This document shows positions 13,019 to 28,948 of a stretch of 64,000 bases of DNA, one piece after another. The notes under the pieces were generated by a model. It was not told where the DNA came from. It did no database searches and worked only from the letters and a program-made list of their open reading frames with translations. Each line of letters begins with the position of its first letter. Position 1 is the stretch's first letter. Made by a program: the position numbers and the translations under genes. The stretch comes from Sinorhizobium mexicanum (GTDB lineage: Bacteria > Pseudomonadota > Alphaproteobacteria > Rhizobiales > Rhizobiaceae), in the NCBI RefSeq assembly GCF_013488225.1, contig NZ_CP041241.1, forward strand, positions 806,001-870,000, given 5' to 3'.

Positions 13019-13063
13019 AGCGTAGTGGCTGAAGGATTTGCAGTCGACTATACAAAGGTTGGC
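13019..13063 (-). promoter_or_regulatory. Weak FixJ/TodT-type box with -10, directed at emrAB
   Basis: Read on the minus strand: GCCAAC-CTTT-GTATAG (13048-13063), 23 bases, then TACGCT (13019-13024) as a possible -10. It is the most degenerate of six CYAAAC-N4-GTWTAS sites in the window, and it counts mainly because the spacing to the -10 matches the others. Confidence 0.35.
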
Positions 13064-13167
13064 TAGAGCCTCCCGCCTTCAAGTGGAATCGTGAAAGCCG
13101 ATAAGATGCTCTAGAATCAAAGTTCTAGAGCGTCGTTTGCCGTCCGATACGACGCGTGGCGCGGTAG
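13064..13167. repeat. RIME-like intergenic repeat, degenerate copy
   Basis: About 100 bases with TCTAGAGC-type palindromic arms and a closing CGTC/GACG hairpin. Closest to the copy at 26394-26499 (shared AAGC-GATAA-ATGCTCTAGAATC core). The rest of 12961-13255 is non-coding, apart from the putative box just upstream of this repeat. Confidence 0.55.
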
Positions 13168-13255
13168 GCGGCGACGAGCTTCGAACGTGCGGGTTGAAGC
13201 GAATCCGCGGAGAAGTTCGTGGTGATTGCCTGCGCATGCACGACGATCCCGCAGA

Positions 13256-15307
13256 TCAAAGGGCACGACCCCGATTGCCTGCGGCATAGGAGGCCGTCGC
13301 TTCCATCGTCACGTGAACCGGCAGCGTGAAGATAAACGTCGCCCCATGCGGTTCGTTGTTCTCCGCCCATAATCGTCCGCCGTGGGACTCTACGATCGAA
13401 CGACAGATTGCGAGCCCCATGCCCATCCCGTGCTCTTTGGTTGTAAAGAACGGTTCGAATATCCTGTCCGGAAACGCGACGCCGGGGCCGCGGTCACTGA
13501 TTTCGGTCTGGATCACATCCCCGATCCGGCGCACACGTATTCCAAAGACCCTCTCGCCTGCAGTGGAATCCATCGCATCCATGCCGTTGCGGATGAGATT
13601 GATCAGAACCTGCTGGATCTGGACGCGATCCAAGGCCACAAGTGGAAGGTTGCTTTCGACCTCAACATCCATACGAACGCGGCGGCGGGTCGCCTCCTCG
13701 ACCATGAGGTTACGCGCGTCTGCAATGACGCTGGCGAGCGTTGTGCTGGTCCTCGTTTCTATGGAATGCTTGAACAGGGCGCGGGTGTGGCTGACGACAT
13801 CCGCTGCCGAGCTCGCATCCTGGATGATGCGCTCCAGCCTCTTCTGCGCCCGTTCGATATTTGGAGGTTCGGCCATAAGCCAGCGTTGGCAGGCATGCGA
13901 GTTCGCCATGACAGCCGCCAAAGGTTGGTTGACCTCGTGCGCGATGGACGCGGAGAGTTCGGCAAGGCTCGCCGCCTGGCTCGCGCGGGCGAGATTTTCC
14001 TGGGACAGGCGCAATTCATCCCGTGCACGGACCTGATCCTCAATATCGAGGCAGACGCCGTTCCATTGCACGATCGCGCCGTCGTCACTGCGCATTGCGG
14101 CTGCACGCATTTCAACCCACCGGTATTCGCCGTCGAAGCGACGCAGGCGGTGGTTCTGCGCGTAGGGTTCACCAGTGGCCAAGGAGTGCGCGAGCAGCTT
14201 GCCTACCGTGGCAAGATCGTCCGGATGAATGATCGCGTTCAGCACGCTCGTGAGGCGTGAGGTGCCGGCGACATCCTTGTCCTCGACGTTGAAACCGATG
14301 AAGCCACTAAATTGCTGACTGAAGTATATGGGCTTGCCGTCCGGCGCTGCACACCAGATGAGCGCCGGCAGCGTCTCGACGAGCTCTCTGAGCGAGCGCT
14401 CGCTCTGGCGCAATGTGAGCGTCGCCAGCTGGTGCTGCCGGGATATGGCGGCCACGATGAGCGCCGAGAATGCCGAGATGGCCAGAAAAAGCTGCAGCAT
14501 GATCTGCTTTTCTTTCTGGGACGCAGGATCGCCGGCAAATTGGCTCGCACCGATTATTGTGAACCCCGCGGTGATCAGAGCGAGGAGGGCCAAGGCGACG
14601 GCTGCGCCTTTGAACTCAAACCGCGTCGCGGCCCAAAGCAGGGGCGGCATGATGATGTAGGCGAAGGGCAGATAACCGCTCAAGGAAAGGGCGGCGATAC
14701 TGAGAAAGATCAGCGCCAGGACGCCAGCCTCTATCCATCGCGCGACCGAGAGATGGGCGTCACTGCCCCAGTTCTGGAATACGACCAGCGCCAATGGCGC
14801 TACAATCAGGACCCCGGTGGCGTCTCCGATCCACCATAGGGGCCAGGCCGTGGCGAAGGATTGTATGCCAAACCATGCGAGCGTCGCACTTCCCACCGTC
14901 GCGCTTACGACAGGCGCAACTCCAGCCCCCAGCGCGACCAGGGCGAGAACTTCCTCCAAGGTTTCCAGCCGAACGGGCCGTCCGCAGGCCCGGTTCACGA
15001 GCCACGCGCCGGCCACCGCCTCCAGAGCGTTGCCGGCAAAGATCAGGCAGGCGACGGGCAGCGGATTGTGGAACCACAAGAGGTTGCCAGAGAGTTCAGC
15101 CAGAAAGCCTCCCAGTACCCACCAGGGCCAGCTCGGCCTGGAGGCGAGGATAAGGGTAGCCATGAAAAGCCCGCTCGGAGGCCAAATGGAAATACCGGTT
15201 CCCGGCACAAGTGCGAGCAACTGGGCAAATCCGCTGGCCAGCACATACGCGACGATGAAAAGCCCGAGATGCAGGAATCGAGGGCGGTGCAACCAGACGC
15301 TCATCAT
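13256..15307 (-). CDS. MASE1-PAS hybrid-less sensor histidine kinase
   Basis: 683 residues. An N-terminal MASE1-type membrane sensor (eight or more spans, residues 10-295, with GISIWPPSGL), one PAS/PAC domain (303-430; HPDD and YRWVEMRAAAM motifs), HisKA with His457 in SIAHEVNQPLAAV, and HATPase with LINLIRNGMDAM and GMGMGLAICRSIVESHGG. The HEVNQP H-box and C-terminus are of the FixL/TodS/DctB type. It starts at ATG with TAGGAGCAGCC. No response regulator is fused or directly co-transcribed; the FixJ-type regulators upstream at 16-17 kb are the nearest candidates. The upstream segment shares a block with the promoter region of the 804-codon kinase. Confidence 0.9.
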   Translation of the reverse strand: MMSVWLHRPRFLHLGLFIVAYVLASGFAQLLALVPGTGISIWPPSGLFMATLILASRPSWPWWVLGGFLAELSGNLLWFHNPLPVACLIFAGNALEAVAGAWLVNRACGRPVRLETLEEVLALVALGAGVAPVVSATVGSATLAWFGIQSFATAWPLWWIGDATGVLIVAPLALVVFQNWGSDAHLSVARWIEAGVLALIFLSIAALSLSGYLPFAYIIMPPLLWAATRFEFKGAAVALALLALITAGFTIIGASQFAGDPASQKEKQIMLQLFLAISAFSALIVAAISRQHQLATLTLRQSERSLRELVETLPALIWCAAPDGKPIYFSQQFSGFIGFNVEDKDVAGTSRLTSVLNAIIHPDDLATVGKLLAHSLATGEPYAQNHRLRRFDGEYRWVEMRAAAMRSDDGAIVQWNGVCLDIEDQVRARDELRLSQENLARASQAASLAELSASIAHEVNQPLAAVMANSHACQRWLMAEPPNIERAQKRLERIIQDASSAADVVSHTRALFKHSIETRTSTTLASVIADARNLMVEEATRRRVRMDVEVESNLPLVALDRVQIQQVLINLIRNGMDAMDSTAGERVFGIRVRRIGDVIQTEISDRGPGVAFPDRIFEPFFTTKEHGMGMGLAICRSIVESHGGRLWAENNEPHGATFIFTLPVHVTMEATASYAAGNRGRAL

Positions 15308-15360
15308 TGGCTGCTCCTAGCGGACAAAGAACGCCAGGGGACTGTAGCGCTTATCCCCGG

Positions 15361-15376
15361 TATCCGGGATGGCGAA
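15361..15376 (-). promoter_or_regulatory. Upstream block shared by two histidine kinase genes
   Basis: TATCCGGGATGGCGAA (plus strand), matched by TATCCGGGTTGGCGAA at 19333-19348 upstream of the other large kinase, with further similarity on the distal side. It lies 54 bases before this kinase gene. The remainder of 15308-15765 contains no gene I can support. Confidence 0.4.
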
Positions 15377-15765
15377 ATCGCACCCAAACCTTAACCCCCC
15401 AAGGCCCGAGCCGCACCTCATGGAAAATCCGCGTGTCACGCGGACACGCATCGCACGGAGATGTGAACCCGCTTCCGTATTTGACGGCTCGAAACCATGC
15501 TGATGACCCGTGAGAGCCGCGCTCCCACCCGCGCAACCTGGAGGCCTAGGTTTTCTTGAAAGCGTCGATATCAATCGACGCAGCGAACCATCTGGTGATA
15601 CGTTTCTTGCTCTCGCGAGACGGTCATACCCACGTTGCACCCGGTCCACTTGTACACCGCATCGTGGGCTCAATGCAAAAGGGATCGCAGGCCTGAGAGC
15701 AAAGCTCTCGTCTCGATTGCCGGCGCGGCAAGAGCCGTTGCGCATTCTCCTCTGACAGTTCGCGC

Positions 15766-16143
15766 TTATGGCGAGTTCGCCTTTCCAGAAAGGGCGTCAC
15801 TGATCGCTGCGAGCAACGCCTGCCCGTCGAAAGGCTTGCGAAAGAACCGGTTGTGCTTTGCCTCCTGCGGCTCAGGGATCTCGTGGCGGCCGGTGATCAG
15901 GATCACCGGCAAGCCGGGACGCCTCTCGCTCATCAGGCGCTTCAATTCGAAGCCGTCCATGCCAGGCATGCCAATGTCGGTGATCAGACAATCGATCTCC
16001 GGCAAAGCAGTGCTGTCCAGAAGAGTATGGGCCGACGAGAATGCCCGTACGGTGTACCCGGCCGACTCGAGAAGATCCTGGAGCGAATCGAGCACGCGCT
16101 GGTCATCATCGACGACCGCCACCACGGACTTTGAGTTGAACAT
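15766..16143 (-). CDS. Receiver-only response regulator
   Basis: 125 residues that consist solely of a FixJ-like receiver domain: acidic pocket VDDDQ (11-15), phospho-acceptor Asp56 in CLITDIGMPG, and a conserved Lys in NRFFRKPFDGQAL. No DNA-binding domain follows. The ATG at 16141-16143 is preceded by GAGGAAG; an upstream TTG overlaps the stop of the FixJ-type regulator. It ends the operon kinase - FixJ-type regulator - receiver. It could be a phosphate sink, a relay, or a protein-interaction output. Confidence 0.85.
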   Translation of the reverse strand: MFNSKSVVAVVDDDQRVLDSLQDLLESAGYTVRAFSSAHTLLDSTALPEIDCLITDIGMPGMDGFELKRLMSERRPGLPVILITGRHEIPEPQEAKHNRFFRKPFDGQALLAAISDALSGKANSP

Positions 16144-16157
16144 ACGTACCAACTTCC

Positions 16158-16787
16158 TCAACGCCTGGAACGAATGACTGGAATTTGCAATCTTTCGGCA
16201 ATTCGCGCCAGATCTGCAAGTGAGGTCACCTGCATCTTCTGCATGATCTCGCTGCGGAGCATTGCAACGGTGATCTCACTGATGCCGAGCTCGGCTGCCG
16301 ACTGCTCGTCCGGGAGGCCGCTGACCACGAGCGGCAGCACCTCGCGCCCTTGCGGTGTAAGCGCGGCCAAGCGGCGTTCGAGCTCGATCAGCTCCGTCCG
16401 TGCTGATCGTTGAACGCGGTCCCGGTCGATTGCCGCCCGAACGGCCGCGACCAGATCGCGCTCCCCGACCGGTTTCCTTAGAAAGCCGATGGTGCCGCCC
16501 TGAGTGGCGCGCACCGACGATGGAATGTCGTCATGCCCTGTAAGGAAAACGACCGGGGGATGGAGATCCCGGGACAGTTGCTTCTGAAGCTCGAGGCCGT
16601 TGATGCCAGGCAGTTCAACGTCGAGGATCAGGCAGGCAGGGAGATCGGGCTTCGCATAGGCAAGATAATCCGCCGCGGCGGCGAATGTTTCGGCTCGCCA
16701 TCCCAGGGACTCCAGCAACTCGCCGAGGGCCTCGCGGACTCTGGCGTCGTCGTCCACCACGAAGACCATTTCGTCGCGCGGGCTCAT
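16158..16787 (-). CDS. FixJ-type response regulator (receiver + LuxR HTH)
   Basis: 209 residues: receiver with VDDDARV (11-17), Asp56 in CLILDVELPG, Lys in GFLRKPVGERDL, a linker helix, and a LuxR/FixJ helix-turn-helix (LTPQGREVLPLVVSGLPDEQ, then GISEITVAMLRSEIMQKM). Its start overlaps the stop of the upstream kinase (ATGA), so the pair is coupled. It belongs to the FixJ/TodT/StyR group, whose known boxes resemble CTAAAC-N4-GTTTAG, a motif found several times nearby. Confidence 0.92.
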   Translation of the reverse strand: MSPRDEMVFVVDDDARVREALGELLESLGWRAETFAAAADYLAYAKPDLPACLILDVELPGINGLELQKQLSRDLHPPVVFLTGHDDIPSSVRATQGGTIGFLRKPVGERDLVAAVRAAIDRDRVQRSARTELIELERRLAALTPQGREVLPLVVSGLPDEQSAAELGISEITVAMLRSEIMQKMQVTSLADLARIAERLQIPVIRSRR

Positions 16788-19159
16788 GACGTCTCGGCCA
16801 CTGCCAACGGAAGCGTGAAGGCGACGGTCGCCCCGTGCGTCTCGTTATCGGCCGACCAAAGGCGGCCGCCATGCACGTCTATGATCGAGCGGCAGATCGA
16901 AAGCCCCATACCCATTCCGTGCGGCTTGGTCGTAAAGAACGGTTCGAAGGCGCGCTCGGCGTCCTTGAAACCCGTGCCGGCATCGCGAACCTCGATGCGA
17001 ATCGCGTTCAAGCCGTCACGGCACGAGCGTATCTGGAGTGCGCGAGAGGCGTCAACCACGGCGTCCATCGCCTCGATCGCGTTCCGGATCAGGTTCACCA
17101 AGACCTGTTGCACCTGGACGCGATCGAGCGCCACCGATGGCAGGTTCGGCTCGAGATTTGTCTGGATGTGAACGTCCTTTGCGGCGATCTCGTCCGTCAT
17201 CAGCCGGCACACTTCGCCGATCAGATGGTTGACGTCTTCCGATGACCTGTTCTGCGGCGCCGGACGGAAGAGAGCGCGGATCCGGCTGATGACATCCGCC
17301 GCCGAGCCGGCACTCCGGATGATGCGCTCGACCGTGACCTTCGCACGCTCGACGTTCGGCGGTTCGGCGGACAACCAATGGTGGCATGCGTGGGAACTCG
17401 CGACGATCGCGGCCAGCGGCTGGTTCATTTCGTGAGCGAGCGAGGCGGAGAGCTCGGCCAGGCTCGCAACCCGGGTCGCCTGCGCGAGCCTGTCGGAGGT
17501 GCGCCGCAGCGCTTCTTCGGCGCGGAACTGATCGTCGATGTCGTGACAGAGGCCGAACCATTGGACAATCTCTCCGCGGTCATCTCGCAGTGGCTCCGCG
17601 CGGCCCGACATCCAGCGATACACCCCATCCGCGCGACGCAGACGATACCGCATTGCAAAGCCCTTGCCGGTCACGAAGCAACGGCCGAGGACCTTCCTAA
17701 GCTCCGCTCTCTCATCTGGATGGATAACGGCCTCTATGACCGCTTCCAGTCGGGTCTTCCCCGGTTTGACCGTATCCGCTACGTCCATGCCAAGGAAATC
17801 GACCATACGCTCGTTGGAGAAGGTTGGCTCGCCGTCCGCAGTCAGCCGCCAAAGGAGACTCGGAACCATGTCGACGAGTTGCGAAAGCTCGCGCTCGCGC
17901 TCGCGCAACGCCTCCTGCGCCCGTATCAGGTCTTCGATGTCGACGGACACGCCATACCATTGGATAATCGCGCCGCACTCGTCACGCAGGGGCTCCGCGC
18001 GGCTCTCGACCCAACGGTGGGGGCCGTTGGATCGGCGTTGACGATATCTCCCCACGAAGGGCGCACCCGTCTCGAACGAGCGTGCGAGCCCGCGGTCCAC
18101 CGCATCCCGGTCATCCGGGTGGACGACCGTCAGGTATCGCGACCCGTCGGGCGCGAGCAAATCCTTCAGACTGATGCCGGTCACATCCGTGACCCGCTTG
18201 TTGAGGTAGCAAGGTATTCCTTCTGGCGTCATGCACCAGATGAGTGCTGGCACGGCGTCGATGAGCTGCTGCAACTGGCGCTCGCTCCGCCGCAGCGCTT
18301 CCTCAGCATGCACCTGGTCGTCTATGTCGTGGCAGAGGCCGTACCACTGGACGATGCGTCCGTCCTGATCCCGCAATGGCTCGGCGCGGCTCGACATCCA
18401 GCGATAGATGCCGTCGGCGCGCCGCAGGCGATACCGCATGGCGAAGCCCTCGCCGGTGACGAGGCAGCGGTTAAGGGCATTCCTAAATTCCGCGGCGTCA
18501 TCCGGATGGACGCTCCCAATGACCACCTCCAGTCGGCTCGTGCCTAACTTGTCCGTATCCGCTACGTCCATGCCGAGAAAGTCCACCATCCGCTTGTTGA
18601 AGAAGGTCGGTTCGCCGTCGGGCGTCAGCCGCCAAAGATGGCTCGGCGTCATGTCGATGAGTTGCGAGAGCTCACGCTCTCGCACCCACAACGCCTCTTC
18701 GGCCTTCTTGATGCTCAGGGATGGCGGCCCGCCAGGAGCGGTCCCTTCTTCGTAACTGGCGCCGGTCACGCCCGCGATCCATTTGTTGGCACGTGCTGAA
18801 GCTCCTTCGCCCGGCGTGCTCCGCATCGCCGCCCGCGTAACGCCGGCGCCGGAAGACGCAGACATGCCGGCGGCGATGATGGCTCCGATGCAAAGCGCCA
18901 CGGCAAAGAACGCCGCCCACAACGATGCGACATCGCGCATACCGTCCGAAAAGAAAAAGGCGGCCAGTATCGAAGCGGCGAATGCGGTCCCCAATATCGC
19001 CAACAGCAGCGGAGCCGTGCGGAGACGCGCATAGACGAACAGCGCGGCAACCGGCGCCAGCAGGCCAAATGGTGTCGTCGTCAGCCAGGACACGGCGATC
19101 CCGACGATGGACGCCGTGAGCATAAGGGCTACGCGCTGTTGCGGAGGCATTGCTATCAT
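16784..19159 (-). CDS. Sensor histidine kinase with membrane domain and three PAS domains
   Basis: 791 residues from the ATG at 19159 (CAGGAGCAG ribosome site). Short hydrophobic N-terminal domain (about 10-100, three or four spans), PAS1 (161-290), PAS2 (292-420), PAS3 (422-552), HisKA with His576 in SLAHEMNQPLAAI, and HATPase with LVNLIRNAIEAM, RDAGTGF and GMGMGLSICRSIID. PAS1 and PAS3 are clearly recent duplicates (MVDFLGMDVADT, FAMRYRLRRADG and GLCHDIDDQ in both). It is the first gene of the kinase - FixJ-type regulator - receiver operon. Ligand unknown. Confidence 0.9.
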   Translation of the reverse strand: MIAMPPQQRVALMLTASIVGIAVSWLTTTPFGLLAPVAALFVYARLRTAPLLLAILGTAFAASILAAFFFSDGMRDVASLWAAFFAVALCIGAIIAAGMSASSGAGVTRAAMRSTPGEGASARANKWIAGVTGASYEEGTAPGGPPSLSIKKAEEALWVRERELSQLIDMTPSHLWRLTPDGEPTFFNKRMVDFLGMDVADTDKLGTSRLEVVIGSVHPDDAAEFRNALNRCLVTGEGFAMRYRLRRADGIYRWMSSRAEPLRDQDGRIVQWYGLCHDIDDQVHAEEALRRSERQLQQLIDAVPALIWCMTPEGIPCYLNKRVTDVTGISLKDLLAPDGSRYLTVVHPDDRDAVDRGLARSFETGAPFVGRYRQRRSNGPHRWVESRAEPLRDECGAIIQWYGVSVDIEDLIRAQEALRERERELSQLVDMVPSLLWRLTADGEPTFSNERMVDFLGMDVADTVKPGKTRLEAVIEAVIHPDERAELRKVLGRCFVTGKGFAMRYRLRRADGVYRWMSGRAEPLRDDRGEIVQWFGLCHDIDDQFRAEEALRRTSDRLAQATRVASLAELSASLAHEMNQPLAAIVASSHACHHWLSAEPPNVERAKVTVERIIRSAGSAADVISRIRALFRPAPQNRSSEDVNHLIGEVCRLMTDEIAAKDVHIQTNLEPNLPSVALDRVQVQQVLVNLIRNAIEAMDAVVDASRALQIRSCRDGLNAIRIEVRDAGTGFKDAERAFEPFFTTKPHGMGMGLSICRSIIDVHGGRLWSADNETHGATVAFTLPLAVAETS

Positions 19160-19332
19160 GATCGGCTGCTCCTGCCGGACAAGGAAGGCCTTTTGCATGG
19201 TTCCTTGGACCGGGGCCGGTTCAAGGATAAATGTGTGCAGCGATTCGAAGGGGCCGCAGCGACCGTTGTGCGCCCGAAAAGACGCCGGCGCTACGGGGCC
19301 TCATCAGCGCCTCTTATAACACCTGTTCTCAA

Positions 19333-19638: not shown

Positions 19639-19681
19639 CTAAACTTTCGTTTAGTCGGAATAGGTGTCTCGATGTGATAGT
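19639..19681 (+). promoter_or_regulatory. Perfect FixJ/TodT-type box with -10
   Basis: CTAAAC-TTTC-GTTTAG (19639-19654) is a perfect palindrome, followed after 21 bases by GATAGT (19676-19681) as a possible -10. It would start a plus-strand transcript near 19688 that runs towards the receiver-only gene at 20037. No convincing protein gene lies in 19199-20036; an open frame at about 19714-19974 lacks a good start. Confidence 0.55.
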
Positions 19682-20036
19682 TTTGCGACGGGACTGAAGG
19701 AGGAGGCCCGGCAATTCACACGATTGGAGTATGGTATACGTTGACCGCGTCTCCCCGATGTCGGAGACAGACGCACCATTCCCTGAATAATAACGGGCAA
19801 CAAACTTTAGCGTTTCGACCTGGATGGCAGCATGCGGGGTGTGAAATGTCAGCTTCTTCCGGCGTATCCATTCGTAGGGATGTCCCGAGCGCAGAGATGA
19901 ATGTAGCATCGCATTTCGAAGTGCTGGCGACCTGTTGTATCCTCCAACCCGGGCGGCATTTGGTTTTCGCCTGAGCATGTCACGGTATGAAGGATTGACC
20001 TTCTGCCTAAGTAGTTCCCGAATTAGAGTTAGGTTC

Positions 20037-20429
20037 TTGAGTCAATCATGCACCATCGCTGTTATTGATGACGACGACGCCCTCCGCGAATCGATGAAGG
20101 ATATGTTAGAGTCGTTGGGCTACGACGCCATTGCTTTTCCATCGGCGTCGGAATTCCTCGATCTTTATAGCCAGTGCCCAATCCACTGCATTATTTCCGA
20201 CGTAAAAATGCCCGGCATCGACGGGCTGCAGTTGTTGGATATATTGAACGGTAAAGGCGCCCGAACGCCGCTCATATTCATGACGGCCTTTCGCGATCAG
20301 CGGTTAACGACGGCTGCCAAGCAAGGTGGCGCTCTAGGTGTTCTGTCCAAGCCCATCGACTCCGATCAGTTGGTTGCAATGCTTGAGTCTGCAGTTGGCG
20401 ACCACAGTGGCGGTAAGGAAACGGATTAG
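20037..20429 (+). CDS. Receiver-only response regulator
   Basis: About 130 residues forming a single FixJ-like receiver: IAVIDDDDALRESM, phospho-acceptor Asp in CIISDVKMPGIDG, and Lys in GVLSKPIDSDQL; it stops right after the last receiver helix. The TTG at 20037 places the first beta strand where receivers usually start; ATGs at 19935 and 19977 are in frame but give an atypical N-terminus. It is the second receiver-only protein of the region and lacks any output domain. The perfect CTAAAC box at 19639 points towards it. Confidence 0.75.
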   Translation: MSQSCTIAVIDDDDALRESMKDMLESLGYDAIAFPSASEFLDLYSQCPIHCIISDVKMPGIDGLQLLDILNGKGARTPLIFMTAFRDQRLTTAAKQGGALGVLSKPIDSDQLVAMLESAVGDHSGGKETD

Positions 20430-20797
20430 CCGCTCACCCTGGCTGCATCCTTCGAAGCCGCCGCGGCATTGGGCGATTTCTCTTGAACACTTAAACCAGA
20501 ACGAGGCTCTTGCGCGGAACGAGCGCCCTCTATCTCTGGCAACAGGTATCTTCGGATCGCTATCTAGGTTCGGCGAAGCCAGTGCTGAGTTCGGATCCGG
20601 GCGCATTCCTCTGAACATATGACGGAAGAGCGCCCGCGTGGGCTGGTGCACCACGCGCAGCGCACTGCGCCTGCCAGCGCGTTGTGCGTCGCCTGTGTGC
20701 GAATGGAATGACAGTCGTCGGTAATAGTTTGCAGATCTGCATGCGGGGCGGGAGGATCTCCTGGATCCCGTGAGGACCGATGCCTCCACTGGCGCGC

Positions 20798-20921
20798 AAA
20801 AATGGCCGCCCCTTTTTAGGGGAGGGGCGGCCAGGTTGGCTGCACCGCGGCGGGGGAGGGGGAGGGACTTGCCGCCTAGGACGGGGAGGGGAACCATCCT
20901 TGGGGACAACGGGTGCGCCAC
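20798..20921 (-). ncRNA. Candidate C-rich small RNA with anti-Shine-Dalgarno loops
   Basis: A minus-strand transcript is suggested by a possible -10 TACTCT (20928-20933), a FixJ/TodT-type box 23 bases further upstream (20957-20972), and a strong terminator: 10-bp stem TGGCCGCCCC/GGGGCGGCCA followed by TTTTT at 20798-20802. The RNA of about 124 nt would fold into ACAACG/CGTTGT, a GCGGC/GCCGC hairpin with a CCCUCCCCC-rich loop, and the terminator. Pyrimidine-rich loops of this kind can pair with ribosome-binding sites. No protein-coding frame is supported in 20430-21297. Confidence 0.5.
20803..20833 (-). terminator. Rho-independent terminator
   Basis: Stem TGGCCGCCCC / GGGGCGGCCA (10 bp, perfect) with an 11-base loop; on the minus strand it is followed by TTTTTGCG. 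It ends the candidate small RNA and could also stop read-through from the hmp operon. Confidence 0.7.
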
Positions 20922-20927: not shown

Positions 20928-20972
20928 AGAGTACGTAGAAAAGCCTGCCTGCGTAACTAAACGTTGGTTTGG
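20928..20972 (-). promoter_or_regulatory. FixJ/TodT-type box with -10 upstream of the C-rich RNA
   Basis: Minus strand: CCAAAC-CAAC-GTTTAG (20957-20972), 23 bases, TACTCT (20928-20933). Same arrangement as at the AhpD-like gene (24 bases, TACTAT). Confidence 0.5.
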
Positions 20973-21297: not shown

Positions 21298-22512
21298 TCA
21301 GGCAGCGATCTGTTCATCTGCAGGCCCGAAGAACTCGAAGTGAACGCGTTCACTCGGAACTCCCGCGCGGGCCAGGTCACCGACCAGGGAGCGCAAGAAG
21401 GGCTTGGGGCCGCAGAGATAGAAGTCCGCCGACGCGAAGGGCGTATTCTCCTGCAGCCAGTTTGCGGTGATAAACCCGTCATGGTCGTGCGAATAGCCCA
21501 CAGCATCCGCCGCGCTGGGATCGCTGTAGAATGTCCGGACCGTGACACCGCCGTGTGTTTTGGCAAGCGATCGAACGTGGCGGTCCATCGCGTGCGTTGA
21601 GCTGTTGAGCGCACCGTGAACGTAGTGGGCCTCCAGCTCCGGATAATCGGAGGCAATTGCCTCCAGCATGCTCACCATCGGTGTAAGCCCAACTCCGCCC
21701 GACAGAAGGACAACCGGCCGGCCCGGTTCTTCCGGAAGGAAGAAGTCACCTGCGGGAGGGGTGACCTCGAGCATGGTGCCGACCTCCGCGTGGTCGTGCA
21801 GGAATTTCGAACCGCCCTGACCCTGCGCTTCGCGTTTCACGGAAATCCGGTAGTACTCGTCATTTGGACCGCAAGAAATCGAGTAATTGCGTTTCACGTC
21901 CGAACCGTCGGCGAGGCGGAAACGGAATGTCAGGTACTGCCCTGGCCTGTGCCTGACAACCGGCTGGCCGTCCGTCGGTCGAAGTATGAACGACGTTACA
22001 ACGTCGCTCTCCTTCCGCTTCTCGGCTATCGCGAATGTTCGCCATCCATTCCAGCCGCCCGACCTGCTGTCGAGGTCGGTGCGGATCTCGGCTTCGCGCT
22101 CCTTCAGCACATCGGCGAGGAACCAATAGGCCTCACCCCAGGCGTCAAGCAAGGCGGGAGACGCCGCGTCTCCGAGAACATCTGCTATCGCCGAAAGCAG
22201 CGCCTTGGCCACGAACGGATAGTGCTCCGGCAGGATGTGATAGCCGATGTGCTTGTGCGCGATGCGTTCGATGGCCGGACCGAGAACCGCCAGGTTCTCG
22301 ATGTTTTCGGCATATGCGAGGATCGCAGCTGCAAGGGCGTGCACTTGCGATCCCGTCTCACCTTGATTGGCGTGATTGAAAAGTGCTCGGATATGCTCAT
22401 CCTGAAAGAGCAGCGTATACATGCGCTTGGTGATTTCGCCGCCGTGCGCGGCGAGCGCCGGCGCACTCTGTTTCACGAGCTCCATAGTCTGCGGTGACAG
22501 GGGACGTGGCAT
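21298..22512 (-). CDS. hmp: Flavohaemoglobin (NO dioxygenase)
   Basis: 404 residues, the normal length. The N-terminal globin has proximal His in IAHKHIGYHI and the Tyr/Gln distal region; the FAD domain has the RNYSIS flavin motif and GQYLTFRF; the NAD domain has LLSGGVGLTPMVSML and the terminal FYLCGPKPFL plus VHFEFFGP. It oxidises NO to nitrate using O2 and NADPH/NADH. It is the second gene of a unit with the truncated haemoglobin fusion (19 bases between) and lies under two NsrR-like boxes, so NO induction is expected. Confidence 0.96.
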   Translation of the reverse strand: MPRPLSPQTMELVKQSAPALAAHGGEITKRMYTLLFQDEHIRALFNHANQGETGSQVHALAAAILAYAENIENLAVLGPAIERIAHKHIGYHILPEHYPFVAKALLSAIADVLGDAASPALLDAWGEAYWFLADVLKEREAEIRTDLDSRSGGWNGWRTFAIAEKRKESDVVTSFILRPTDGQPVVRHRPGQYLTFRFRLADGSDVKRNYSISCGPNDEYYRISVKREAQGQGGSKFLHDHAEVGTMLEVTPPAGDFFLPEEPGRPVVLLSGGVGLTPMVSMLEAIASDYPELEAHYVHGALNSSTHAMDRHVRSLAKTHGGVTVRTFYSDPSAADAVGYSHDHDGFITANWLQENTPFASADFYLCGPKPFLRSLVGDLARAGVPSERVHFEFFGPADEQIAA

Positions 22513-22530
22513 AAGAGGTCCTTTCTTCTC

Positions 22531-23211
22531 TTAGCGGATTTCAATGCTTGGGTTGCGATCGTAGAACTCGATCTGCAAGTTGACGGGCCCCGAAAGCTCA
22601 AGGCGATGGGGAACTTCCGGGGGAACGATCCCCGGTCTGTCGCGATCAAGGAGGATCGCGTGTGTCGCGCCATCGGCGCGATACTTCACTGCGCCGCCGT
22701 GGACGCGAATTACACCCCAGGTCCCGGGTTTGAGCGTGTGCGACCGAAGCAGCGCTTGGGGCAATGAAACCTCGTCGAACGCCGAGGTGATCCGGTATGG
22801 ACTACAGGGCTCTTCTGCGTTGGTCGGTTGCTTCGAGTAGGCTTGTGGTGCCTGTGGGTGAATTGCGCGCGACAGCCGCGATGCTATACGCGTGGCTTTG
22901 GCTTGCATCTCAGTCGCCAAGGACTGCGGCAACATCTCGGAGGTCGTGAGACGCCACAGAGCCAGCCAGCGATCGAACATTTCCGGACGGATCCGTTCGG
23001 CGTGGATCATGTGCATGGAGACTGGATTTCCTTTGTACCGGCCTGTCGTCAGCATCACCGACGACCAGAATTCCGACAGCCGGCCAAGGTGCTCGTCCCA
23101 ATCCGCGACGATGGCGAAGACCGGTCCAAGTTCGGCGTCGGCTCGCACGCGCTCGTAAAACCGCGCGAGAATTTTCGGAATTTCGCGCTCGTCGAGTTTT
23201 TCTCTTTGCAC
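22531..23211 (-). CDS. Group III truncated haemoglobin fused to a DUF1971 (TehB-like) domain
   Basis: 226 residues from a GTG at 23209-23211 that has an ideal GGAGG site; an ATG at 23229 overlaps the NsrR-like site region and looks less likely. Residues 1-125 are a 2/2 haemoglobin of group III (IPKILARFYERVRADAELGPVF, FWSSVMLTTGRYKGNP, and the proximal His region HMIHAERI). Residues about 145-226 match DUF1971 (LRSHTLKPGTWGVIRVHGG, PEVPHRLEL), a small beta domain known from tellurite-resistance TehB. Together with Hmp and NsrR this points to NO or nitrosative stress. Confidence 0.87.
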   Translation of the reverse strand: MQREKLDEREIPKILARFYERVRADAELGPVFAIVADWDEHLGRLSEFWSSVMLTTGRYKGNPVSMHMIHAERIRPEMFDRWLALWRLTTSEMLPQSLATEMQAKATRIASRLSRAIHPQAPQAYSKQPTNAEEPCSPYRITSAFDEVSLPQALLRSHTLKPGTWGVIRVHGGAVKYRADGATHAILLDRDRPGIVPPEVPHRLELSGPVNLQIEFYDRNPSIEIR

Positions 23212-23224
23212 CGCAAGCCTCCAT

Positions 23225-23284
23225 AACATGCTTCTGAGATACATCTATTGCGTCGCACAAAAACATGCTATTGAAATACATCTT
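23225..23284. promoter_or_regulatory. Two NsrR-like boxes
   Basis: Two 11-1-11 imperfect inverted repeats: AACATGCTTCT-G-AGATACATCTA (23225-23247) and AACATGCTATT-G-AAATACATCTT (23262-23284), 37 bases apart. The right arms match the known NsrR half-site AAGATGYATTT read in reverse. They lie between the divergent trHb-hmp operon and nsrR and could control both. Confidence 0.75.
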
Positions 23285-23316
23285 TTTGGGGCAGGCGTTT
23301 TGACGCAGGTGGGGAT

Positions 23317-23736
23317 ATGAGGCTGACGCGATACACGGACTACGCGATCCGGACGCTGACATACCTGGGCGCACGCGAGGCCGAGGTCTGCTCCATACGC
23401 GAGATCGCGGAAGCATTCGACATCTCTCAGAACCACCTGATGAAGGTCGTGCAGGACCTTGCGAACGCCGGTTTCATCAAATCGACGCGCGGAAGAAATG
23501 GTGGGATCCAGCTTGCCAGGGCCGCAGGCGAAATAAACCTCGGCGCCCTCCTCAGACACACGGAGGTCCTGACTGACCTCATTGAGTGTTCCGGCTGCGT
23601 GATAGCTCCGGCCTGCAGTCTCCCGCCAATACTTTCGGAGGCAACGAGAGCCTTTGTCTCAGTGTTTGAGAAATACACCATCGCCGATCTTCTCCGACGA
23701 AGACGCGACCTCCAGGTATTGCTGCGGGCGGCATAG
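23317..23736 (+). CDS. nsrR: NsrR, Rrf2-family NO-sensing repressor
   Basis: 139 residues with the Rrf2 N-terminal wing (MRLTRYTDYAIRTLTYLG), recognition region SQNHLMKVVQDLANAGFIKS, wing STRGRNGG, and three cluster cysteines Cys91, Cys94 and Cys100 in ECSGCVIAPAC, the NsrR spacing. The [Fe-S] cluster is nitrosylated by NO, releasing DNA. It is divergent from the trHb-hmp operon with NsrR-like boxes between, the typical arrangement. Confidence 0.93.
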   Translation: MRLTRYTDYAIRTLTYLGAREAEVCSIREIAEAFDISQNHLMKVVQDLANAGFIKSTRGRNGGIQLARAAGEINLGALLRHTEVLTDLIECSGCVIAPACSLPPILSEATRAFVSVFEKYTIADLLRRRRDLQVLLRAA

Positions 23737-23950: not shown

Positions 23951-23973
23951 AGCCCCCAGCATCACCGGGGGCT
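23951..23973. terminator. Hairpin between nsrR and the haloperoxidase-like gene
   Basis: Stem AGCCCCC / GGGGGCT with a 9-base loop, in the 257-base gap between the two convergent genes. No other feature was seen in this gap. Confidence 0.5.
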
Positions 23974-23993
23974 GTAGTTACGCCGTCAGCAAG

Positions 23994-24968
23994 TTACGCG
24001 CTGATAAATTCGAGGATGTCCCGATTGATGATCTCGGCATGGGTCGTTGCCATGCCGTGCGGAAGCCCCTTGTACACCTTGAGTACGTTGTTCTTGAGAA
24101 GTTTGGCGGACAAGAGCGCGGAGTCGGCGACCGGAACGACCTGGTCATCATCGCCGTGCATGATGAGTGTCGGCACGTCGATGGTCTTGAGGTCTTCGGT
24201 GAAATCAGTCTCCGAGAACGCCTTGATGCCGTCGTACTGGGCCTTTGTGCTGCCCATCATTGCTTGCCGCCACCAGTTCTCGACCACCGAATTCGAAGGG
24301 ATCGCGCCGGGTCGGTTGTATCCGTAGAACGGCCCGCTTGCGAACTCTCGGTAAAGCTGGCTGCGGCTCTCCAGCAATGCTTTCCTGAAACCGTCGAACA
24401 CTTCAACCGGCAGCCCACCGGGGTTTTCCGGCGTCTTGACCATGAGCGGGGGGACTGCGCCAATGAGAACCAGCTTGGCCGCGCGCCCATTGCCGTGGCG
24501 GGCAACGTAGCGGGTTGCTTCGCCACCTCCCGTCGAGTGGCCGACGTGGATCGTCTCGCGAAGGTCCAGATGCTCGACCACGGCCGCGGCGTCGCTGGCG
24601 TAGTGGTCCATATCATGGCCGTCGTTTATGTCGCTCGATCGGCCATGCCCACGTCGATCGTGAGCGACGACTCGGTAGCCCTTCTCCATGAAGAAAAGCA
24701 GTTGTGCATCCCAGTCGTCGGAGCTGAGCGGCCAACCGTGATGAAACATGATCGGCTGCCCGCTCCTCGGGCCCCAATCCTTGTAGAAGATCTCGACGCC
24801 GTCGGCGGTGGTGACTCTGTTCGCGCGCAACGTGCCGCTCCCCGAGGGAGAAGCGGGTGTTGCGGAGGCTGGTGTCGCCGACGCCACGGGAAGAGCTGTC
24901 GCAGTGGCGAGGGCGAGCCCGGCGGTCATTACGCCACGGCGAGTGGTCTGGTTGGTATTGGGTTCCAT
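23994..24968 (-). CDS. Tat-exported alpha/beta hydrolase of the cofactor-free haloperoxidase type
   Basis: 324 residues. Twin-arginine leader ([19 protein letters not shown]) with an Ala/Ser/Pro-rich linker, then an alpha/beta hydrolase fold: oxyanion [12 protein letters not shown], nucleophile Ser in VGHSTGGGE, catalytic Asp in [11 protein letters not shown] and His in [10 protein letters not shown]. The set matches non-haem chloroperoxidase/arylesterase proteins, which can perform perhydrolysis. A FixJ/TodT-like box lies about 120 bases upstream. Confidence 0.88.
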
Positions 24969-25060
24969 TGCTTTCTCCTACATCCGCAAAACAAAGCGTC
25001 GATGCATGTTGGACGGTTTTCGTGCTTATGCTGCCCACGAGGTGGCTGAGCGCTTGCGAA

Positions 25061-25104
25061 AATGAACGTCCGGCTTCGCCGACTGTAGATGTACAAAGGT
25101 TTGG
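25061..25104 (-). promoter_or_regulatory. FixJ/TodT-like box with -10 upstream of the haloperoxidase gene
   Basis: Minus strand: CCAAAC-CTTT-GTACAT (25089-25104), 22 bases, TTCATT (25061-25066). Weaker in the proximal arm than the best copies. The rest of 24969-25507 is non-coding and nothing else was recognised. Confidence 0.4.
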
Positions 25105-25507
25105 GTGCCCCAGGAAGATGAGCAAGTCCCCATGAGCCCCGCTTTACCTTAAGTCAGGTGGGCGGGAGAAACTCGTTCGTCCTGTTGCTGCCTGCGCGGG
25201 AATAATGCGTCACGGTTGACCGTGCCGGAGTCATTAACGGCGCCGAACTGCTGCCCGGTTGGGCCAGGTTGCTGCAGGGTGCCCGTAGTCGCGACTGCGC
25301 CGACAGAAGCGCGCGCCACCGGTTAGTTGAGGTCATTCAAGACAAAGCGGCAAAGGCGACGTGCCAAGCCGACGGCTAATAAAAACCTCCGCTTATGATA
25401 GATAAAGTTGGCTCCTGTCAGCAGGAATGAAGAGCAAATCGTTCATGTGGCAAAGATCAGGTGTTGCCAATGACGACCACGATTAAGCAAAATTAAGAGG
25501 TTTAGTG

Positions 25508-26251
25508 ATGCGCGATCTAGTCGCAATCGTAACCGGTGGCAGTTCTGGCATCGGACGCGAAGTAGCTATTACATTAGCAAAACTCGGCACTCGTGTCCTG
25601 ATAACGGCACGGCGTCAGGCAGGAATTGATGAAGTCTGCGCCCGATCGGAAAATATCAAAGGTATTATTGCCGATGTAGCGAAGCCGGCCGACGTCCGGC
25701 GAACGGTTGAGGAAGCAATCGGTCTTTGGGGGAGGCTGGATGTTCTGATCAACAACGCCGGTGCAGGTGGCATTATGCCGCTCGCGGAAGCAACGGAGGA
25801 GCGCATAAAGGATATTTTCGCTGTCAACGTGACGGGTCCGAGTCTTTTGGCCGCTGCAGCCCTTCCGCACTTGAGCGGGAGGGGCGGAGCGATCACCAAC
25901 ATCTCCAGCACCTATGGGCACAAGGCTGCTGCAGGCCTCTCGCACTATGCGGCGAGCAAAGCGGCCCTCGAGCACCTTACGCGCTGCTGGGCGCTTGAAC
26001 TTGCACCCCATGGAGTGCGCGTCAATGCAATTGCCGCCGGGCCGACAGAAACCGGGGCGCTGACGGGGATGATGGGATTGACTGCCGAAGAAGCGGAGAA
26101 CGTCAAGGAGTATGAGCGCAATCTGATCCCATTGAAGCGTCGCGGCACACCGCACGACGTCGCGCAATGGATAGCGATGTTTGCGAACCCGGAGGCGGCA
26201 TGGACGACGGGTCAAATTCTGTCGGTCGATGGAGGGCTTTCGGTCGTCTGA
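25508..26251 (+). CDS. Short-chain dehydrogenase/reductase (classical SDR)
   Basis: 247 residues with a Rossmann motif TGGSSGIGREV, the NNAG stabilising motif, catalytic Ser in TNISSTYG, and the Tyr-xxx-Lys pair in HYAASKAALEHL; C-terminal SVDGG is typical. It would oxidise or reduce an alcohol/carbonyl with NAD(P). The ATG at 25508 is preceded by AAGAGG; a GTG three bases earlier is also possible. It is a lone gene; the substrate cannot be inferred. Confidence 0.9.
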   Translation: MRDLVAIVTGGSSGIGREVAITLAKLGTRVLITARRQAGIDEVCARSENIKGIIADVAKPADVRRTVEEAIGLWGRLDVLINNAGAGGIMPLAEATEERIKDIFAVNVTGPSLLAAAALPHLSGRGGAITNISSTYGHKAAAGLSHYAASKAALEHLTRCWALELAPHGVRVNAIAAGPTETGALTGMMGLTAEEAENVKEYERNLIPLKRRGTPHDVAQWIAMFANPEAAWTTGQILSVDGGLSVV

Positions 26252-26334
26252 GAGATCGGCTCACTCCCCATGGCCCGCCTCGCGCAATTGAATGCATTGA
26301 CGCGTGTGCATGGTCCACTTGGATATTTGCAGGA

Positions 26335-26365
26335 ATTGGCCGCGAACCTTGTGCTCGCGGCCAAT
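26335..26365. terminator. Hairpin after the SDR gene
   Basis: Perfect 11-bp stem ATTGGCCGCGA / TCGCGGCCAAT with a 9-base loop, about 85 bases after the SDR stop. No T-run. Confidence 0.5.
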
Positions 26366-26393
26366 AGCGCGTCGTTGGAAAAGCGTTCTCGTC

Positions 26394-26499
26394 TAGAGCA
26401 TCCAGTTTCAATGGAATTGTTGAAAGCGGATAATATGCTCTAGAATCGAAGTGCCAGAGCATCCTTTGTGCGTTCATTCGAAGGCACGACGCTCTAGAC
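26394..26499. repeat. RIME-like repeat
   Basis: About 105 bases bounded by GTCTAGAGC and GCTCTAGAC, with internal ATGCTCTAGAATC and a CCTTTGTGCG-type hairpin. Sister copy at 13064-13167; occupies most of the gap between the SDR and NmrA-like genes. Confidence 0.65.
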
Positions 26500-26508
26500 C
26501 GAAGATCG

Positions 26509-27267
26509 CTACGCGACTTTCTTCGGCTGGGCGTCGAACCACTGTTCGAATGTAACCCGACCAAGGCGCGGGCTCTTGTCCGAAACGAGAGAATTGTCGT
26601 CGATACGCGCGCCGAAATAGCGTGCCTCCGGATCCGCTACCACCTTTCTCGGGTCGTTCATCTTCTTGAGATAACGCCCGATCAAATCACTGAGCTTCAC
26701 ACGCTCAGGACCGGCAATTTCGACGATGCCGTTCTGCGGTTGGCTCAGCGCCACGTCGGTCATTGCGTCCGCGACATCGTCCGAGGCGATCGGCTGTATC
26801 GCAGCGGGCGACAGGTGAACCGTGTCGCCGACGGTACCCGATTGGGCGATACCATTAACGAACTCCATGAACTGCGTGGAGTGCACAATCGTATAAGGAA
26901 TGCCGGATGCCCGGATCAGGTTTTCCTGCGCCAGCTTGGCGCGGAAATAGCCACTCTCTTGCAGGCGTTCGGTGCCGACCACGGACAGAGCGATGTGGTG
27001 CTTCACGCCTGCGATTTGCTCCGCGGCCAACAGGTTCGTGCCCGATCTCTCGAAGAACTCGAGTACGGCCTTGTCTTCGAATGATGGGGAGTTTGCGAGA
27101 TCAAGGACGACTTCGGCGCTCTTAAGTGCGTCGGCGAGCCCTTCGCCGGTAATCGTGTTGACGCCCGTATTTGGTGCCGCAGCGATGACTTCGTGACCGC
27201 GCTTGCGCAAGCGATCGGCGGTCTTCGAACCGATAAGTCCGGTCCCACCAATAATGACAATTTTCAT
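26509..27267 (-). CDS. NmrA/NAD(P)H-binding family protein
   Basis: 252 residues from an ATG with a perfect GGAGG site (six bases). Rossmann motif IIGGTGLIGSKTADRL, then an atypical SDR layout with YFRAKLAQENLI and ASGIPYTIVHSTQFMEF. Similar proteins are described as NAD(P)H:quinone or sugar-nucleotide-like reductases, but no substrate can be given. It is the second gene of an operon with the AhpD-like gene (59 bases between). Confidence 0.85.
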   Translation of the reverse strand: MKIVIIGGTGLIGSKTADRLRKRGHEVIAAAPNTGVNTITGEGLADALKSAEVVLDLANSPSFEDKAVLEFFERSGTNLLAAEQIAGVKHHIALSVVGTERLQESGYFRAKLAQENLIRASGIPYTIVHSTQFMEFVNGIAQSGTVGDTVHLSPAAIQPIASDDVADAMTDVALSQPQNGIVEIAGPERVKLSDLIGRYLKKMNDPRKVVADPEARYFGARIDDNSLVSDKSPRLGRVTFEQWFDAQPKKVA

Positions 27268-27326
27268 AATATACCTCCGGTTGCAGCTCAAGTCGCGTTT
27301 GGAATCGAGCAAGTAAGAGAGACGAG

Positions 27327-27806
27327 TTAGCTCAAACCGGCCTTGTCGAGGCCAAATGCCTTGTCGGCTGATCCCGGCACGGCTTTGAACCCGATGCTGG
27401 CCCGGTTCCAGGCATTGATAGTCATGACCGCGAATGTGAGGTCGGAAATCTCTTTCTCGGACAGCTGACCGCGGACACGTTCGTAGATATCATCCGGAAC
27501 GCCGCCGGCTGGCAGGTTCGTCAGCACTTCCGTCCAGGCCAGCGCAGCCCGTTCGCGAGGGGCGAAGAGGTTTGACTCGCGCCAGATCGCCACATGGTGG
27601 ACGCGCAATTCGCTTTCGCCGTGGATCTTTGCTTCCTTGACATGCATGTCCAGGCAGAAGGCGCACCCGTTCAACTGCGAGGCCCGGATCTGCACCAGGT
27701 CTCGGGTCTTCTGGTCGATGGCGCTGTTGTTCACTGCGGCGCTGAGCTCCATCAACTTCTTGAAGAGCTCCGGGGACTGCTGTGCGTAGTTCAGTCGCTG
27801 TGTCAT
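27327..27806 (-). CDS. AhpD/carboxymuconolactone decarboxylase family protein
   Basis: 159 residues, all-helical CMD fold with the redox motif GCAFCLDMHVKEA: a Cys-xx-Cys pair followed by His, preceded by an acidic residue upstream, as in AhpD-type alkylhydroperoxidases. It probably detoxifies peroxides using thiol chemistry. It is first in a two-gene operon with the NmrA-like gene. A perfect CTAAAC-N4-GTTTAG box within an extended 26-base palindrome and a -10 (TACTAT) lie upstream, giving a 73-base leader. Confidence 0.88.
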   Translation of the reverse strand: MTQRLNYAQQSPELFKKLMELSAAVNNSAIDQKTRDLVQIRASQLNGCAFCLDMHVKEAKIHGESELRVHHVAIWRESNLFAPRERAALAWTEVLTNLPAGGVPDDIYERVRGQLSEKEISDLTFAVMTINAWNRASIGFKAVPGSADKAFGLDKAGLS

Positions 27807-27885
27807 TGAAACCTTACCTTGCTTATTCGCCTATGGATGCCGGCTGAACACCGGCCGGCACATGGGAGGTGTTGGAACATCATGG

Positions 27886-27936
27886 ATAGTAGTTGGAACG
27901 CTCTTCCCGGGGATCCTAAACATTGGTTTAGGATCC
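27886..27936 (-). promoter_or_regulatory. Best FixJ/TodT-type box, extended palindrome, with -10
   Basis: Arms GGATCCTAAAC (27911-27921) and GTTTAGGATCC (27926-27936) are perfect inverted repeats of 11 bases around ATTG; the core is CTAAAC-N4-GTTTAG. On the minus strand TACTAT (27886-27891) follows after 24 bases, so the box would sit near -45, suitable for a FixJ-family activator. The remainder of 27807-28224 is non-coding. Confidence 0.7.
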
Positions 27937-28224
27937 ACTTTCCAGGCTCGAGCGCACTTTGTGCTTTCACTGGAATGCCGGCGCTCTGGCGGCGATGCGT
28001 CGAAGTTGACGAGCGCCGTGAATGACGCGATCACACCTGCCGAGTGGCCGCGGATCCTGTGCGTAGATGAGAATTGGGGGCAATGCTTCGCAACGTATCG
28101 TTGCGTCAAGCGCGTTTCGCCGCCGTCTCCGACGGGCCGCGTTGTGGCTCGCGTAAATCGGGCGTGTCGAGAAACCGTGATGCCGAGCAATTGTGCTCGG
28201 GTGGCTTCTTAATGGTGGCAGGGA

Positions 28225-28857
28225 TTAGATGAGCTCTGATTTTTTCACGAGGTCGGCCAGCGAGCGGGCTTCCATCTTTCGCATCACGCTGGCTCTGTGA
28301 ATCTTGACCATGATCTCACTGATCCCGAGCTCATAAGCTATCTGCTTGTTCATGAGGCCGTCGGTGACGTGCTGCATTACTTCCTTTTCCCGAGGCGTCA
28401 AAGTCGATGCTTTCTGCTTGATGGCATTCCTGACGACGGCATCCTGTCGTCTGGACCGATCAGTCTCGAAAGCCCTGCCTACTGCATCGAGCAGTTCCTC
28501 ATTGGTGAAGGGCTTCAGCAGAAAGTCTACCGCGCCCGCCTTCATTGCTGTCACGCTCGTTGGCACGTCGCCATGGCCTGTCACGAAGACTACCGGAGTC
28601 TGGCATCCGAGATCCTCCAGCCGGGATTGAAACTCGATGCCGCTCATGCCCGGCATCCGAACATCCAGCACAATGCAGCCTGAAGCGTTCAGGCAACCAT
28701 TCTCGATGAAATCCAGAGCGTCGCGGAAAGACGATGATTTAATGCCCACAGACTCAAATAGATCGATCATAGAGAGACGGATGTCAGCATCGTCGTCAAT
28801 TACAACCACAACTTGTTCTTCGATCGGGGCGTCTACGATTTTGCGTGCGGTCGACAT
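28225..28857 (-). CDS. FixJ-type response regulator (receiver + LuxR HTH)
   Basis: 210 residues: receiver with VIDDDADIR, phospho-acceptor Asp65 in CIVLDVRMPGMSG, Lys in FLLKPFTNEELL, then a LuxR/FixJ domain (LTPREKEVMQHVTDGLMNKQ, GISEIMVKIHRASVMRKM). It lies 120 bases downstream of the matching kinase on the same strand. Its own upstream region holds a CTAAAC-N4-GTATAC site with a possible -10 (GACAAT), suggesting autoregulation by this or a paralogous regulator. Confidence 0.92.
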   Translation of the reverse strand: MSTARKIVDAPIEEQVVVVIDDDADIRLSMIDLFESVGIKSSSFRDALDFIENGCLNASGCIVLDVRMPGMSGIEFQSRLEDLGCQTPVVFVTGHGDVPTSVTAMKAGAVDFLLKPFTNEELLDAVGRAFETDRSRRQDAVVRNAIKQKASTLTPREKEVMQHVTDGLMNKQIAYELGISEIMVKIHRASVMRKMEARSLADLVKKSELI

Positions 28858-28904
28858 TGTGCTGTCTCCTCGAATGCCGGAACGGTGGTTGCATTCTGCC
28901 TTGA

Positions 28905-28948
28905 ATTGTCTCGGGAGGCACCCTGTTTCAAAGTATACAATGGTTTAG
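28905..28948 (-). promoter_or_regulatory. FixJ/TodT-type box upstream of the FixJ-like gene
   Basis: Minus strand: CTAAAC-CATT-GTATAC (28933-28948), 22 bases, GACAAT (28905-28910). Transcription would start about 40 bases before the regulator ATG. Confidence 0.5.

Follow-up and report, generated by a model that had tools for sequence, protein, structure and literature searches.

The 64,000-nucleotide stretch analysed here (the window, positions 806001-870000 of contig C4 in the 7.14 Mb, four-contig genome of Sinorhizobium mexicanum, G000) raises the question of which regulator, if any, acts on a palindromic element that recurs upstream of its genes. A preliminary description had listed six such boxes, of the form CYAAAC-N4-GTWTAS and each followed by a -10-like hexamer, and had read them as a FixJ-type regulon beside two FixJ-type regulators, the proteins encoded on the minus strand at 28225-28857 and 16158-16787, here called RR and FixJ2. 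The regulon is supported by the conservation of the sites and by their co-occurrence with RR; as to the binder, RR is the candidate and FixJ2 is unlikely. With good confidence, the box can be taken as the predicted operator of RR, a StyR/TodT-type response regulator that would act as a class II activator of its own gene and of the targets described below, and an autoregulated StyR/TodT-type regulon is the most likely description of the system.

The box in the window and in the genome

All six boxes and their -10-like hexamers lie where they had been reported, separated by 21 (box at 19639), 23 (20957), 22 (25089), 24 (27916), 22 (28933) and 23 bases (13048). The spacers in this genome span 21-24 bases and the predicted box centres fall between -41.5 and -44.5. 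Because the -10 hexamers are weak and were picked within a four-base spacing range, it is conservation between genomes that argues for the fixed spacing.

When up to two mismatches are allowed, the window contains 24 matches (both strands of each palindrome counted) against 6.7 expected, and none of 100 shuffles reaches 24. The exact pattern, CYAAACNNNNGTWTAS, which is the box as originally proposed, has six distinct sites in the 7.14 Mb, whereas the reversed-pattern control has two matches; five of the sites are in the window (19639, 20957, 27916, 28933 and 38869) and one is at C1:2590011. Four of the six fall between 19.6 and 28.9 kb of the window and are intergenic. With one mismatch, in contrast, the 41 genome matches are rarer than the 106 of the control; the loose consensus is therefore useless as evidence and was dropped, and only the strict box is informative. 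Two of the reported sites, 13048 and 25089, are two-mismatch matches, and it is conservation alone that speaks for them.

Some matches were set aside. The exact box at 38869-38884 (minus strand) lies inside the methyl-accepting chemotaxis protein gene at 37624-39792, and its surroundings are conserved over their full length in three relatives in a coding-like manner; it was therefore discarded as a probable chance match and is not counted in the regulon. The match at 22415, inside the hmp coding sequence, is probably also due to chance. The RND pump at 30933-35237 was rejected as a target, since the stretch from 28949 to 38868 has no match even at two mismatches. A perfect palindrome of the CTATAC-GATG-GTATAG type is also seen at 63012-63027, flanked by the genes of an AraC-type regulator and an ABC permease.

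A refined pattern, YMAACCWWNGTWTAS, derived from sites seen in RR-encoding genomes, likewise finds six sites in G000 (control: one). Four precede RR, ahpD, the small RNA and emrA, and two are located on the 4.3 Mb contig C1, presumably the chromosome: C1:2590011 precedes a gene for a DUF900 alpha/beta-hydrolase and C1:2512941 a gene for a small cupin protein, both proteins having N-termini that appear signal-like by eye. The genome holds 28 distinct one-mismatch sites, 20 of which were fetched and 19 scored, the stretch on C3 being too short; the eight not fetched include the cupin site, one site in hmp and the window site at 63012. One of those scored, C4:492676, is intergenic and reads box-N23-TAGCGT before an isochorismatase-family gene, as it does in G029, and this gene elsewhere on C4 probably belongs to the regulon. 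The other 18 were dropped, lacking a TANNNT at 21-25 bases. The cupin and isochorismatase promoters came from the searches and were not among the sites first listed. Extension of the predicted regulon to another contig, through the cupin and DUF900 hydrolase genes, is supported by these sites. Altogether, the box and its spacing recur at eight promoters, spread over two contigs, whose genes are unrelated.

Conservation and co-occurrence with RR

Among 33 genomes of the genus, ten encode an RR ortholog of at least 87% identity (RR+) and 23 do not (RR-). The exact pattern has 41 distinct sites in the RR+ genomes versus 13 in the RR- genomes; for the refined pattern the counts are 52 versus 6, the reversed control giving 14 versus 24 matches. 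For these counts of distinct sites, overlapping matches on the two strands were merged by hand. Box counts in the two groups differ with a Mann-Whitney p of 1e-6, a value uncorrected for kinship and obtained with a pattern drawn from RR+ sites; since the RR+ genomes are related, such p-values overstate the number of independent events.

At the single promoters, the box upstream of RR itself (CTAAAC-CATT-GTATAC, 28933-28948, minus strand; GACAAT at 28905-28910, minus strand), which would provide autoregulation, fits CTAAACCNTTSTATAC in all ten RR+ genomes. Upstream of the ahpD-like gene, CTAAAC-CAAT-GTTTAG (27916-27931, minus strand) is embedded in a 26-base inverted repeat with a four-base centre (27911-27936) and is found in 9/9 linked orthologs of RR+ genomes, with agreement at 11 or 12 of 12 positions; its TACTAT (27886-27891, minus strand) is unchanged in the nine aligned genomes. 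The box of an alpha/beta-hydrolase gene (CCAAAC-CTTT-GTACAT, 25089-25104, with the weak TTCATT at 25061-25066, both minus strand) departs most in G005, where it reads CCACACTTAGGTACAT, and similarity between genomes starts at most six bases from it in six of the seven other genomes. For the small RNA promoter (CCAAAC-CAAC-GTTTAG, 20957-20972, minus strand), the hexamer TACTCT (20928-20933, minus strand) recurs in eight of the nine aligned RR+ genomes and is TATCCT in G006. The palindromic CTAAAC-TTTC-GTTTAG on the plus strand (19639-19654) is present in nine genomes, in G005 with one change, and a GATAGT-type -10 (19676-19681, plus strand) is conserved along with it on that side. Finally, GCCAAC-CTTT-GTATAG upstream of emrA (13048-13063, minus strand) is identical in all nine RR+ emrA copies: each of the nine RR+ genomes holding emrA carries GCCAACCTTTGTATAG at -141 to -145 together with TACGCT (13019-13024 in the window, minus strand).

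These alignments comprise ten sequences for RR, eight for the hydrolase, and nine each for the ahpD-like gene, the small RNA, the 19639 box and emrA. Mean column conservation is 0.86-1.00 in the box versus 0.46-0.87 in the 30 bases upstream, although the patterns by which the sequences were chosen determine the box columns in part. At the small RNA, the hydrolase and emrA (the last in three genomes) the similarity starts near the upstream box edge, and it often runs into the gene. On the other contig, the cupin box is kept in 10/10 RR+ genomes (with one mismatch in G006) and the DUF900 box in nine of the ten (with one mismatch in G027).

The RR- genomes behave differently. A box at the corresponding place is absent from all 21 scored RR- copies of emrA (20 genomes; three of the 33 emrA matches fall outside the set of these and the nine RR+ copies), from nine RR- homologs of ahpD, four of which are only 45-47% identical, from seven RR- homologs of the DUF900 gene, five of them 76-79% identical, and from 20 RR- homologs of the cupin gene. 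The small RNA is found in nine of the ten RR+ genomes versus none of the 23 RR- genomes. In 13 stretches of 11 RR- genomes (loci L245-L257) a similar cluster is observed, made up in varying combinations of genes for a MASE1 kinase, a second kinase, a FixJ2-like and an RR-like protein (45-50%), NmrA, cupin, AhpD-like, hydrolase and DUF900 proteins and emrAB. A search of 29 upstream regions of these clusters gave no convincing common dyad; a like search of 21 upstream regions from G000 ranked the box second (CTAAA-N6-TTTAG) and fifth, behind an unrelated dyad, which indicates that the search is able to find such a box, yet ranks noise high.

Beyond the genus, the RR ortholog of Shinella (L007, 77%) is preceded by what appears by eye to be a degraded box, with no match at one mismatch. 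In a sample of 394 genomes of the family, where eight of the genus's 33 are among those listed and few candidates were scored per genome, the RR ortholog was seen in the genus only (2/394).

The predicted binder and its mode of action

RR combines a receiver with a GerE (LuxR-type) helix-turn-helix domain according to Pfam, as StyR and TodT do, and its five best relatives, in Sinorhizobium/Ensifer strains, are 93-96% identical. Its closest solved structure is StyR (1yio, 180.6 bits, versus 141.6 for FixJ), and its score of 198.4 bits against the NCBIfam FixJ model is below the equivalog cutoff of 255. The operator ATAAAC-N4-GTTTAT, which the preliminary description had named for TodT and StyR, is the one given for StyR-like regulators in PMC5874301; most sites here have the core YAAAC-N4-GTWTA, but outer bases that are mostly C and G/C. 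According to the same source, StyR contacts DNA through K175, V176 and H179; RR has K, I and A at these positions, and FixJ2 has A, M and S.

Very probably, the binder is RR and not FixJ2. Binding by FixJ2, alone or alongside RR, is quite improbable: although it is encoded in the same region, matches StyR at 160.4 bits and has full-length orthologs (at least 79%) in seven of the ten RR+ genomes, G000 included, its match extends no further than residues 1-175 in G026 and residues 1-109 in G025, and it is absent from G006 (best 45%), while the boxes persist in all three. Moreover, 11 RR- genomes with FixJ2 homologs of 59-62% have just 0-2 exact box matches each, and the recognition helix reads VAMLR instead of the VKVHR of StyR, without the K175 lysine. 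Another StyR-like paralog as main binder, or several paralogs sharing the box, is unlikely as well, if somewhat less so. Six other FixJ-type paralogs of G000 (44-52% identity) keep the lysine and the HR of the helix, so that they could bind similar boxes, and one-mismatch boxes, CTAAATCTAGGTTTAC, occur near a duplicated paralog on C2; however, it is RR that has a conserved box of its own and that tracks the box across the 33 genomes, and the RR- genomes have many paralogs of 44-51%, yet few boxes.

The same box could, in principle, serve repression, since it is placed where RNA polymerase would contact the -35 element and since phosphorylated StyR (StyR-P) also represses when on further, low-affinity sites (PMC2442086). 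The -35 matches to TTGACA are 2-4/6, and three of nine promoters reach 4/6 versus about 9% of random places; no promoter exceeds this value, however, the -10 hexamers are as weak as expected for activator-dependent promoters, and the predicted box centre agrees with the activating site of StyR at about -40, which makes repression by RR an unlikely reading. That the boxes are chance matches or an inherited promoter element with no dedicated regulator is barely conceivable. One-mismatch matches are no commoner than the control and the related genomes have a common ancestry, but against this stand the common box and spacing at eight unrelated promoters on two contigs, the conservation of boxes where the upstream flanks vary (with the proviso on box columns given above) and the lack of boxes in RR- homologs.

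Several observations weigh against activation by RR through this operator. RR departs from the StyR contacts at two of three positions, isoleucine replacing V176 and alanine replacing H179, and the six paralogs keep the lysine and the HR of the helix. The -10 hexamers match TATAAT at only 3-4/6 positions, those of the hydrolase (TTCATT) and cupin (GATTAG) genes being the weakest, and the -35 elements are weak, though not plainly absent. In six of the ten genomes the second half-site of the RR box opens with C in place of G, and two positions of the small RNA box are changed in G031 and G032 (CCATACCAACGTCTAG). Box and regulator also do not coincide everywhere: the distant homologs of ahpD (80%) and of the DUF900 gene (about 52%) in G006 have no box, the small RNA is absent from the RR+ genome G010, and the RR- emrA copy of G008 has, within 350 bases but on the opposite strand, a 10/12 match that scores the same as the true emrA box. 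Lastly, the RR- cupin homologs, at 57-71% identity, are probably paralogs, and the relatedness of the RR+ genomes means that the sites are not independent events.

Taking all this into account, RR remains the preferred candidate activator. A dimer of RR, presumably phosphorylated, would bind the palindrome YMAAC-N4-GTWTA, whose centre at about -43 falls where a -35 element would be, and would act as a class II activator, with positive autoregulation of its own gene. From sequence we infer binding by RR, activation rather than repression, phosphorylation and a role in detoxification; class II activation by phosphorylated RR is suggested by the activating site of StyR-P, which is located at about -40 (PMC2442086), and by the overlap of the box with the -35 place, and the weak -35 and -10 elements fit activator-dependent promoters. 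The predicted targets are the RR gene, the ahpD-like gene (probably with nmrA), the alpha/beta-hydrolase gene, emrAB, a receiver-only protein and a small RNA with CCUCCCC loops, to which the cupin and DUF900 hydrolase genes on the other contig and probably the isochorismatase-family hydrolase gene would be added.

As for the signal, the kinases of the region comprise a 280-aa HisKA/HATPase protein and single kinases of MASE1-PAS or multi-PAS type. The former, a short histidine kinase without PAS that adjoins RR (28978-29820, minus strand), is the candidate cognate kinase and is present at 55% identity or more in 3/10 RR+ loci; the alternative, a MASE1-PAS histidine kinase (13256-15307, minus strand), is found in 6/10, several of the ten loci being cut by contig ends or by the fetched range. 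Signs of decay of this branch are seen at loci L120 (G026), L121 (G025), L003, L113 and L118: FixJ2 is shortened in G026 and G025, and in several RR+ loci the kinase at 16784-19198 is missing or in pieces.

Two further observations may concern other FixJ-type regulators. The CTAAATCTAGGTTTAC boxes, at C2:245269 and C2:250509 of G000, each lie beside one of two near-identical FixJ-type paralog copies, and CTAAACCTAGGTTTAC at C2:56156 of G005 is also beside a FixJ-type paralog. An element that resembles the box without being the same, (A/T)TAAACTCCCGTATAG or CTAAACCTCCGTATAG, is seen at L002:8363, L003:8416 and L005:8381 and in the RR- genomes G012, G020, G024 and G030; at the three loci it is followed by TTACGG, giving a CCGTA-N4-TACGG palindrome before a small gene of unknown function. 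A different FixJ-type regulator may have this type of element as its box.

Targets and comparison with known systems

The targets had been described as a pump, peroxidase-like and AhpD-like proteins, the regulator itself and a small RNA. The last three hold, with the AhpD-like/carboxymuconolactone decarboxylase family protein at 27327-27806 followed on the same (minus) strand by an NmrA-like gene (26509-27312). The pump is EmrAB (10093-12905), composed of an EmrA-like membrane fusion protein (11871-12905) and an EmrB-like MFS transporter (10093-11874), both on the minus strand. The supposed peroxidase-like protein, in contrast, is an alpha/beta-hydrolase according to Pfam (23994-24968, minus strand). 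The 19639 box faces a receiver-only response regulator (20038-20429, plus strand; Pfam domain on the open reading frame 19935-20429, start codon inferred from the alignment) behind a leader of about 350 nt, and this gene is its probable target, the alternative being an unrecognised transcript. The leader (19682-20037) has an AGGAGG-type stretch near the start in most genomes, and no small conserved open reading frame is apparent by eye in its alignment. Amid the regulon region, a gene for an NO-inducible flavohemoprotein, a DUF1971 gene and a divergent NsrR-like Rrf2 regulator occupy 21298-23736; in the window scan with up to two mismatches, none of them has an intergenic match to the box.

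The predicted small RNA (20797-20921, minus strand) follows its box and -10 and has a minimum free energy of -55.6 kcal/mol (z -4.88). The consensus fold of seven sequences consists of two stem-loops presenting C/U-rich loops, of the CCUCCCC type, and a terminator; its pairs are nearly invariant, so that covariation is uninformative. Against Rfam, ar14 gives a full-length match of 22.0 bits (E 0.14), under the gathering cutoff of 58.8, and CcsR1 a weaker one of 13.9 bits, under its cutoff of 65.3. We take ar14 to be of the same family as NfeR1 of S. meliloti. The loops suggest that the small RNA may have an anti-Shine-Dalgarno role. It is possible, though doubtful, that a stress-sensing regulator here couples detoxification enzymes and a pump to an ar14/CcsR-type anti-Shine-Dalgarno RNA that damps translation of competing mRNAs, perhaps that of RR itself, the neighbouring kinase being dispensed with in most species.

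For a genus of nodule bacteria, the analysis defines a concrete predicted regulon of a StyR-like protein, made up of this regulator, its proposed operator and about nine promoters. In these bacteria the regulon may control how plant or microbial toxicants are survived, and it would put a possible anti-Shine-Dalgarno RNA under a two-component system. A comparative case is provided by the homologous cluster that other genomes of the genus carry, where the regulator has diverged and this operator is missing. Judged by titles and abstract openings, none of the papers listed in a literature search describes this regulon.

Among the closest known systems is StyS/StyR of Pseudomonas (styrene catabolism). 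It shares the FixJ-family regulator (the closest solved structure) and the TAAAC-N4-GTTTA core (PMC5874301), and its activating site at about -40 (PMC2442086) is comparable to the predicted box centres. It differs in its targets, since those predicted here comprise genes of detoxification type, a pump and a small RNA, no aromatic-hydrocarbon catabolic operon being among the targets found. Other differences are the ends of the box, for the most part C..G/C and not A..T, and the A and I of RR at the H179 and V176 positions. No TodS/StyS-type double kinase is among the kinases of the RR region, the rest of the genome not having been searched for TodS. TodS/TodT, TmoT and TutB are similar in the operator core, ATAAACN4GTTTAT (PMC5874301); TodT, however, uses three sites farther upstream and IHF (PMC2442086), whereas a single proximal site per promoter is predicted here. 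FixL/FixJ of rhizobia shares the receiver plus GerE architecture, but in the recognition helix of the solved FixJ the K175 position is occupied by E, and no fix genes occur in the present target set.

For the small RNA, the ar14 and CcsR-type RNAs (CCUCCUCCC motifs) are alike in their C-rich CCUCCCC loops, two stem-loops and terminator. In S. meliloti, LsrB activates NfeR1 and NtrC represses it (PMC10746234), whereas the small RNA described here has a StyR-type box. Likewise, the EmrAB pump of S. meliloti, flavonoid-induced and accompanied by the TetR-type regulator EmrR (PMC4990936), is of the same type as the present one, but here it is a response-regulator box that precedes emrA.

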